From positions 1 to 64,000 of the forward strand of contig JAAELY010000029.1 in the NCBI GenBank assembly GCA_024226335.1: a stretch of DNA of 64,000 nt, written 5' to 3'. Of this stretch, positions 1 to 16,710 are shown in pieces; the stretch's first letter is position 1, and every line of letters starts with the position of its first letter. The DNA is from a bacterium. GTDB lineage: Bacteria > Myxococcota_A > UBA9160 > SZUA-336. The notes under the pieces are model-generated. The model saw nothing but the letters and a program-made list of their open reading frames with translations, was not told the DNA's origin and ran no database searches. Position numbers and translations under genes: made by a program.

Positions 1-498
1 ATGAACTTCCAACCCTGCGAAGTTCGGTGGAAATCACATTCAGGGTTGGGGCAGAAGGGCGGCTTGCGACAGGCCGGGAGTTCGCGCATTCCCGGTCACT
101 ACGCACACCCCGTGCCAGGTACATTCTTCGGACCACAACTCATTGCTCACCCCGTCTGAACCGACTGCTGCCGATCCGTCGGATTGGTATCGCGGGCCAT
201 CGAAGCAGCCGGAATCCCGACCGTTACCCTCAATATGATCTGGCCATTTCAACGCGTCGTCGGAATGCCGCGGGTGGCGGTGATCGAACACCCGTTCGGG
301 CGTCCCTACGGAGATGTGGGGGATTCGAGCGGGCAGACGGCGGTCCTCGAAGCGGCGCTTTCGCTTTTTGAAAGCGCAAAGACGCCCGGGCAAATCGAGC
401 ACCTTCCCTTTGTCTGGCCTGAGGATCCCAAGGATACGAAGTGGCACCCCGCCGAGCCCTCGCCAATCAACGCATTGATGAAATCGCGCCGGTGTTGA
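1..498 (+). CDS. Selenoprotein-B-like (GrdB family) C-terminal part, in-frame UGA
   Basis: The frame is open from base 1 to the TGA at 496-498 except for one in-frame TGA at 157-159. Reading that codon as selenocysteine gives V-U-T-D-C-C-R-S-V, a UxxCxxS motif followed by GLVSRAIEAAGIPTV. This aligns without gaps, U on U, to the second copy at 15802-16710, and the alignment runs on through HPFGRPYGDVGD. That is the C-terminal half of the glycine/sarcosine/betaine reductase selenoprotein B family, a thiol/selenol redox family. The first 50 codons (bases 1-150) do not resemble the family, and the ATG at base 1 may be chance. The gene may therefore be cut by the window edge, frameshifted or decayed upstream. 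A TTG at 184 could start a shorter product without the redox motif, which would make little sense. The Sec reading is inference supported by the paralogue. Confidence 0.55.
157..187 (+). promoter_or_regulatory. Possible SECIS-like hairpin at the UGA of the first selenoprotein-like gene
   Basis: Just after the UGA at 157-159, CCGAC (161-165) can pair with GTCGG (178-182), leaving a 12-base loop. A few weaker pairs involving 159-160 and 184-185 could extend it. Position and size suit a bacterial SECIS, but the stem is short and the loop is wide, so it is much weaker than the hairpin of the second copy at 16314-16340. Confidence 0.25.
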
Positions 499-15115: not shown

Positions 15116-15733
15116 TCAGGCCGAGGCACTCGGTCGACTCGATACGCGTTCGTACCAGCGCTCGACGTTTGAATGTGACGCCTCGGGTTTGAGCCCGTTC
15201 AGTTGCCCTGCGAAATCGAAAGTCGTGAGGGCCACGATGTCGGCCATGGTGTACGCGGGACCGGCGATATACGCACGAGTGGCCAGCTGGTCATTGAGGA
15301 AGCCGAAGTAGCGCCGCACGATTTCTCGGTTCTGTTCCGCGACCTCCTCGATCTGTTTCGAAACGATCTTGGCGGTCATCGGGCTGCCGTGGACCCAGAC
15401 CAGGCTGAGCGGATTCATGAAATTGAACTCGATGCGCCGCAGCCACATGTCGATTCTGGCCCGATCGACAGGGTCGAGCCCGAAAAGAGTCGGGTCGGGA
15501 TGCAAGGCCTCGAGGTAGCGGCAGATCGACAGGGACTCGGCGATATGAGTGCCGTCGTCGAGTTCGAGTACCGGTACCCCGCCCATCACGTTCACCTTTT
15601 CGATGAATTCGGGCCGGCGGTTTTCCCGTTTCACGATATCGACCTGCTCAAAGGGCACGTCGATGTCCTTCTCGGCCAGATAGATGTGCACGCGTCGCGG
15701 GTTCGGGGCCCCCGAATAGGTATAGAGCTTCAT
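15116..15733 (-). CDS. Glutathione S-transferase family protein
   Basis: A 205-residue GST with KLYTYSGAPNPRRVHIYLAEK at the N-terminus (tyrosine and serine at the active-site loop), VNVMGGVPVLELDDGTHIAE with the cis-proline, and a helical domain ending AYIAGPAYTMADIVALTTFDF. The ATG at 15733 is chosen because the family alignment begins MKLYTY; the frame runs to 15784 upstream. It is divergently transcribed from the selenoprotein gene at 15802, with 68 bp between the starts, so they may share a control region. The catalytic substrate is unknown. Confidence 0.9.
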   Translation of the reverse strand: MKLYTYSGAPNPRRVHIYLAEKDIDVPFEQVDIVKRENRRPEFIEKVNVMGGVPVLELDDGTHIAESLSICRYLEALHPDPTLFGLDPVDRARIDMWLRRIEFNFMNPLSLVWVHGSPMTAKIVSKQIEEVAEQNREIVRRYFGFLNDQLATRAYIAGPAYTMADIVALTTFDFAGQLNGLKPEASHSNVERWYERVSSRPSASA

Positions 15734-15801
15734 GGGTGCGATGATAGGTGATTCAGGCCCGGTAGGTGTACCCTGACCGAGCACATCCAGCGGGGGACGA
15801 A

Positions 15802-16710
15802 ATGGCCGAAACCGATCGCAAGACCAGTCATCGCAGCTTCGTTAGCTACATCGATCGAACTCGTGAGTTCTACGCCGCTCAGGGCTACGACCAGCCCTAC
15901 CAGTGGTCGACTTATCGCGAGGTGCCTTTTGCCCCGCTGACCCGGCCGCTGTCCGAATGCCGGGTTACGCTGGTGACCACCGCCAGTCCTTTTCGCAACC
16001 AGAAGGCGCAGGATGGCGTTTTGCGGGGCGCGAAGGCTGTCTGGTCGGGAGCGACCGATGCGCCACCCGACAAGCTGTTCACCGATGATCTGGCCTGGGA
16101 CAAGGAGACGACGCACACCGACGATGTTGAGTCCTTCCTTCCCATCCAGCAATTACATGCGGCGGCTGCGCGTGGGCGAATCGCCGGGGCCACCGAACAC
16201 TTCCACGGCGTGCCGACCGATTACAGTCAGCGGCGTACGATCGAGCAGGATGCCCCGGAGATCCTGAAGCGCTGTCGAGAAGACGGGGCGGACGTCGCAC
16301 TTCTGGTACCGCTCTGACCTGTCTGCCACCAGACGGTCAGTCTGGTCGCCCGTCATCTGGAAGCGAACGGAATTCCGACCGTAGTCGTGGGCTCCGCGCG
16401 CGACATTGTCGAAGAGTGCGGGGTGGCCCGCTTCCTGTTCAGCGACTTCCCTCTGGGAAACCCCTGCGGTGTGCCCTACGACCGCGAGATGCAGCAGTCC
16501 ATGGTCGCTCATGCCCTGGATCTGCTCGAGAGTGCTCGACTGCCTCGTACAACGGTCCAGGCGCCCGTCCGCTTCGGCAGCGACGAGGACTGGAAGGCGC
16601 GCTACGCGCGAATCGACGCTTCCAACCGCGAGCAATTGCGCGCCATGGGCGACCGCAGGCGCGCCCGCCAGGGACAGGCGAAGAGTGAGGGGCGCGCGAG
16701 AGAGAGTTGA
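15802..16710 (+). CDS. Selenoprotein B-like (GrdB family) protein with selenocysteine at UGA 16315-16317
   Basis: A 302-codon gene with one in-frame TGA at codon 172 (16315-16317); the ORF is otherwise unbroken to the TGA at 16708-16710. The ATG at 15802 has GGGGGA upstream. The N-terminus reads SFVSYIDRTREFYAAQGYDQ then FAPLTRPLSECRVTLVTTAS, the known pattern of glycine/sarcosine/betaine reductase selenoprotein B family proteins. The stretch VPLUPVCHQTVSLVARHLEA contains the UxxCxxT redox motif, followed by NGIPTVVVGSARDIVEECGV and FPLGNPCGVPYD. The family's classical members form Sec-dependent reductase complexes, but this stand-alone 302-residue form has no proven role. A SECIS-like hairpin starts at the UGA (separate entry). 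It neighbours a divergent GST and sits 12 kb from the thioredoxin-fusion gene. If UGA were a real stop, the redox cysteine half would be lost. Confidence 0.88.
16314..16340 (+). promoter_or_regulatory. SECIS-like hairpin beginning at the UGA codon
   Basis: The mRNA folds into an 11-bp stem: 16314-16319 pairs with 16335-16340, the U at 16320 is bulged out, and 16321-16325 pairs with 16330-16334 around the 4-base loop CCAC (16326-16329). The UGA (16315-16317) is in the 5' arm. Known E. coli SECIS elements also start near the UGA and have a bulged U in the upper stem that SelB reads. The loop here lacks the G-U of the E. coli loop, so recognition would differ in detail. The bases also encode the redox motif, so part of the pairing may be coincidence. 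Confidence 0.65.

Follow-up and report, generated by a model that had tools for sequence, protein, structure and literature searches.

We describe here a gene of 302 codons with an in-frame UGA, located in a 64,000-nucleotide stretch of DNA (the window) from a draft genome of the uncultured bacterial class UBA9160, which almost certainly encodes a selenoprotein of a stand-alone family related to PrdB, the small subunit of D-proline reductase. The reading of this UGA as selenocysteine (Sec) is supported by the Sec machinery of the genome, by homologues that have only Sec or Cys at this residue, by equal selection on both sides of the codon, and by a covarying bSECIS hairpin. We put the probability of the explanation as a whole, a genuine Sec-decoded and stand-alone PrdB-like selenoprotein, at roughly 0.85.

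A single gene with an in-frame UGA codon

Translation of positions 15802-16710 with TGA read as U yields 302 residues (...LLVPL-U-PVCHQTVSLVARHL...) and one internal TGA (Table 1), which confirms the initial annotation of a single gene whose frame is open except at the TGA of a U-P-V-C-H-Q-T motif. Under the normal code the locus falls mechanically into open reading frames at 15766-16317 (183 aa, GTG start) and 16387-16710 (107 aa), a split of the kind that had been predicted for annotation pipelines. The ATG start agrees with the N-termini of orthologues, which follow the pattern xTHRSFVSYIDRTREFY. Conservation had also been described as continuing across the UGA, and it does: each half alone matches the PrdB profile TIGR04483 (34.4 bits for the N-terminal and 38.6 bits for the C-terminal half), and pN/pS is ~0.35 both 5' and 3' of the codon in 15 pairwise comparisons.

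Table 1. Positions of the selenoprotein gene, its predicted decoding elements and a related gene in the window
Feature	Positions	Strand	Remarks
PrdB-like selenoprotein CDS (predicted)	15802..16710	+	302 aa including Sec172; ATG 15802; stop TGA 16708-16710
Putative Sec-encoding UGA (U172) of UPVCHQT motif	16315..16317	+	TGA/TGC/TGT in all homologues scored
Cys175 codon	16324..16326	+	second UxxC redox residue, proposed resolving Cys; from alignment
bSECIS hairpin (predicted)	16328..16346	+	stem 16328-16334/16340-16346; loop 16335-16339 (GGUCA); UGA-to-loop 17 nt
Second PrdB-like gene, 3' part, UTDCCRS group	157..498	+	contig edge; UGA 157-159; SECIS 170-188

In a set of 60 genomes, this codon is TGA in each of 16 orthologues (57-71 % identity) found elsewhere in the class, and also in four further genes of the present genome. 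The best 80 relatives in public species genomes have TGC or TGT in 74 cases and TGA in 6, the latter all in gammaproteobacterial MAGs. Among the homologues scored, no codon other than these three was found at residue 172, where U or C had been anticipated. Cys175 is more than 90 % conserved in the alignment, and one paralogue group has Asp in its place. On the unrooted tree, two changes, in either direction, suffice for the Cys state, and the window gene falls within a group made up of 17 Sec sequences, all from its class. Genome-wide reassignment of UGA was rejected, since this gene and many of its orthologues terminate with TGA.

Selenocysteine machinery of the genome

The genome is a fragmented draft of 5.75 Mb in 556 contigs, estimated to be 97 % complete. 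A check for selA, selB, selC and selD had been proposed in the initial annotation, and all of this machinery was found: profile searches of the genome recovered selA, selB and selD, each above its curated cut-off, and there is one tRNA-Sec(UCA), at 72.7 bits with the Rfam model, which ARAGORN identifies as tRNA-SeC (anticodon TCA). Two weaker Rfam matches to tRNA-Sec were rejected as ordinary tRNA-Ser. The selD gene (locus L212, G000:C545:82897-83823) is itself interrupted by an in-frame TGA in the context LVPAGG-U-ARKLG, followed by a hairpin, AGGACCU-GGUUC-AGGUCCU, with 7 bp and a GGU loop 26 nt past the UGA. SelD is a predicted second selenoprotein of this genome, unrelated to the PrdB-like ones and with a signal of the type that their genes carry.

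A covarying bSECIS hairpin

With the U of UGA numbered 0, positions 13-19 and 25-31 form the stem of the predicted bSECIS hairpin and enclose a loop of 5 nt. All seven pairs are present in 74 of 95 distinct UGA sequences and at least six in 92 of the 95; in Cys homologues, pair 18:26 is mostly broken and pair 15:29 often so. For 30 diverse sequences, 95.2 % of SECIS cells are paired, against 20-37 % with one side slid, and the covariation score of 0.58 compares with 0.20 (s.d. 0.025) for shuffled data, none of 500 shuffles reaching as high a value. Within the loop, pair 20:23 is C:G in 67 and G:C in 21 of 94 Sec sequences; in Cys sequences these two positions mostly read C/C. Synonymous choice hardly varies at codons +4 to +10 (diversity 0.03 versus 0.44 at other invariant residues), and comparison with synonymous recodings gives a z of -2.6 (more stable) for hairpins of Sec genes and 0.1 for Cys genes. 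A covariance model of the hairpins detected five sites in the genome at E <=1e-6, which are the five PrdB-like UGA genes, and the next site had an E of 0.28; sensitivity here is by construction, because those five genes were in the training set of the model, and it is the specificity that is informative.

Folding of a 61-nt segment of the window favours a different hairpin, with the UGA inside it, and a 45-nt segment yields the SECIS hairpin; the comparative evidence decides for the SECIS hairpin as the probable structure. A published bSECIS model (PMC13188914) calls for a loop of 3-9 nt, an upper stem of 4-16 bp, a G within the first two loop nucleotides, an N1:N2 loop pair, a UGA-to-loop distance of 16-37 nt and an energy of at most -7.5 kcal/mol. 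The hairpin described here lies within this range, with a loop of 5 nt, a stem of 7 bp, the loop GGUCA in which the covarying pair 20:23 is the N1:N2 pair, a spacing of 17 nt and an energy of -11.0 kcal/mol. No Rfam family matches the PrdB-like SECIS. Like the bSECIS of E. coli fdhF, the hairpin stands right after the UGA and has GGUC in its apical loop (+21 in fdhF, +20 here), but it differs in stem sequence, in its seven unbroken pairs and in the energy of the folded segment, which is -5.7 kcal/mol for fdhF.

Relationship to PrdB and GrdB

Judged by profile scores, the closest named family is PrdB, and the GrdB family is less close. The read-through protein scores 88.7 bits (E 4e-25) with NCBIfam TIGR04483 and does not reach the equivalog cut-off of 300 bits. 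The GrdB, GrdF and GrdH profiles (TIGR01917/01918, NF040794/NF040795) give 20.8-27.8 bits against cut-offs of 65-800, aligning only at profile positions of about 212-426, and the protein lacks the two-domain length of these families; a Pfam search of the 302-aa protein found no match. The initial annotation had assigned the N-terminal half to the glycine/sarcosine/betaine reductase selenoprotein B family. Matches to GrdB, GrdF and GrdH do exist, but they are weaker than the match to PrdB, and the restriction to the N-terminal half did not hold, both halves being similar. Its description of a stand-alone form of unknown function was judged right.

The protein resembles PrdB in its homology over both halves and in the Sec of a UxxC motif, and differs from it in score and in that neither a PrdA partner nor a prd operon was found. 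With GrdB, GrdF and GrdH (also PF07355) it shares a related C-terminal Sec domain (20-28 bits), but it corresponds only to the Sec-bearing half of GrdB. Searches of its own draft genome for PrdA and for the GrdE/GrdG-type partner PF09338 gave no match, the control genomes being silent too in both searches. We file the gene neither as a D-proline reductase nor as a GrdB, since it scores below the cut-offs by which these two families are defined; against a D-proline reductase there is further the failure to find a PrdA/GrdE-like partner and the unconserved gene neighbourhood.

Gene neighbourhood

No conserved neighbours, operon or adjacent partner gene were found at 14 loci of Sec orthologues, and the neighbours of Cys homologues are lineage-specific only. 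In the window, a glutathione S-transferase (GST) gene (15116-15733, minus strand) is divergent from the selenoprotein gene, ~68 nt away from where the latter starts; the L137 orthologue also has a similar GST beside it, and a GST is adjacent in 2 of 15 loci. In Acetobacteraceae and relatives, a gene that by eye resembles a CaiB/BaiF-type CoA-transferase lies shortly after the Cys homologue in the same orientation (loci L028, L029, L032, L034, L046, L052, L055, L071, L094, L099 and L104), which hints at a catabolic role.

Paralogues within the genome and the class

PrdB-like genes occur in 44 of 53 genomes of the class that are at least 90 % complete, and in none of the 53 is the TIGR04483 cut-off reached. 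Among the matches listed, each has one in-frame TGA except for two partial matches in the present genome. The second PrdB-like gene of the window (Table 1), which spans 151-498 and is truncated by the contig edge where the window begins, is related and lies outside the transcription unit of 15802-16710. The genome also has a sixth PrdB-like locus (L211, G000:C266, about 1176-1490), which is without the Sec-motif segment; compared with L189 it looks like an in-frame deletion, and may be a pseudogene, an assembly gap or a non-catalytic form.

By N-terminus and motif the paralogues form at least seven groups, with the Sec motifs UPVCHQT, UPVCHQS, UPLDHQT, UPMCNQA, UPDCCRS, UPNCTRA and UPLCPRT/UPMCTRT. 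In the UPLDHQT group (L150-L155, L157 and L159) the Sec is kept and the second redox Cys is replaced by Asp. Members of two paralogue groups (L003, L004, L171, L175, L196 and L202) have lengths of about 385-430 aa and score above the cut-off of Pfam GRDB; their C-terminal part beyond the PrdB-like domain has no Pfam match.

Predicted structure and proposed mechanism

The predicted structure is an alpha/beta protein (pLDDT 89.9, pTM 0.90) with Sec172 between a strand at 165-169 and a helix at 173-188. Solved structures searched with the protein sequence and profile gave no convincing match, and the fold gives no function, since comparison with the PDB and viral libraries returned nothing at E <0.01. 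Placement at the start of a helix, as predicted for this selenol, is common among reactive chalcogen nucleophiles. The Sec of PrdB and GrdB acts together with another subunit, which carries the pyruvoyl group and holds the amino acid.

We infer, on very strong comparative evidence, that the UGA is decoded as Sec in the cell. SelB with Sec-tRNA-Sec would bind the hairpin, whose loop 17 nt past the UGA would present a GU enclosed within a G:C (or C:G) pair, and the UGA would be read as Sec. In the single-chain protein, Sec172 would then sit just before the helix with Cys175 one turn further. Its selenolate could attack a small substrate at an electrophilic atom, or else an S-S or S-X bond; a Se-S bond (selenenyl-sulfide) would form with Cys175 and be reset by a cellular thiol system. 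A bond with the second Cys is not expected to be universal, because one paralogue group has UxxD. Whereas D-proline and glycine reductases work with a pyruvoyl-carrying partner, this protein would do without one. The picture of a single-component thiol-dependent selenol reductase, in both its chemistry and its reductant, has about an even chance of being correct. FarB, a GrdB-family selenoprotein proposed as a monofluoroacetate reductase that attacks the C-F bond (PMC10838667), also has a bSECIS and is a precedent for Sec attack on small molecules, but it has a GrdE-like partner, FarE, and an operon, and comes from anaerobic Synergistota.

Alternative explanations

That the UGA is really a UGC or UGU, altered by a sequencing or assembly error, or else a true stop in a decaying gene, might be suspected from the predominance of Cys among the best public homologues (74 of 80) and from the fragmented state of the draft. 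Either of these, of which the initial annotation had named a sequencing error as fatal to its reading, is refuted by the comparative data and has a negligible probability: the same codon is TGA in all 16 orthologues and in four further genes of this genome, selection is equal on both of its sides, and the covarying hairpin occurs only with TGA. Given a Sec-decoded gene, the best family match would fit a true D-proline reductase PrdB or an amino-acid reductase B subunit whose pyruvoyl partner is encoded elsewhere or missing from the draft, with GrdB, GrdF and GrdH scoring below PrdB. We consider this improbable in view of the 88.7 bits against a cut-off of 300, which no genome of the 53 reaches, the searches for PrdA and PF09338 that found nothing (though their positive controls were silent), and the orthologue loci, where a partner gene is adjacent in 0 of 14.

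Somewhat less improbable, though still unlikely, is glutathione-linked detoxification, in which the Sec would attack toxic electrophiles and the adduct would be resolved with glutathione and the adjacent GST. The closeness of that opposite-strand gene, the similar GST beside the L137 orthologue and the C-F bond attack proposed for FarB (PMC10838667) all speak for it; against it, most of the 15 loci have no adjacent GST, and the Cys homologues adjoin other genes. A protein thiol-disulfide oxidoreductase or redox chaperone, with no small-molecule substrate, would account for a UxxC placed where a helix begins, an arrangement of thioredoxin-like selenoproteins, and for Sec orthologues outside any catabolic operon. 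It is a minority possibility, as a thioredoxin fold is not matched by sequence families, the relatives PrdB and GrdB use small molecules, and the UxxD group has no second Cys. The stand-alone PrdB-like reductase is the reading that we prefer.

Significance

UxxC selenoproteins named 'proline reductase PrdB' were reported from the Sargasso Sea in 2005 (PMC1088965) and from GOS in 2008 (PMC2398784), with 42 and 235 Sec sequences, respectively. Compared with these published sequences by description only, the present protein shares PrdB homology over the Sec domain, the UxxC motif and a family with both Sec and Cys members, so that its membership in this group, known from marine metagenomes since 2005, appears well supported. 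It differs from them in that it is shown to score below the PrdB cut-off, with no PrdA found and with several paralogues per genome. New here are the proof of the SECIS by covariation and the class-wide radiation into at least seven Sec paralogue groups, one with UxxD in place of UxxC, which together make a selenoprotein family of unusual size for one lineage. Our literature search found no paper on stand-alone PrdB-like proteins in Bradyrhizobium or as PrdB paralogues, and no reported function for PrdB-like proteins outside clostridial D-proline reductase.

In ocean metagenomes, PrdB-like proteins rank with the abundant selenoprotein families and are carried as 'proline reductase', although the window gene and all matches in 53 genomes of the class fall below the PrdB cut-off. 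The covariation-backed SECIS model can be used to call PrdB-like genes that annotation has truncated, and one uncultured class turns out to hold several copies per genome. Cys-form homologues in the culturable Bradyrhizobium and Belnapia make a genetic test of function possible. We tentatively suggest that the Sec paralogue groups are single-component selenoenzymes without pyruvoyl partners that act on different substrates; if true, they would constitute a selenoenzyme superfamily that has diversified by substrate and lies outside the fermentation of amino acids (Stickland).
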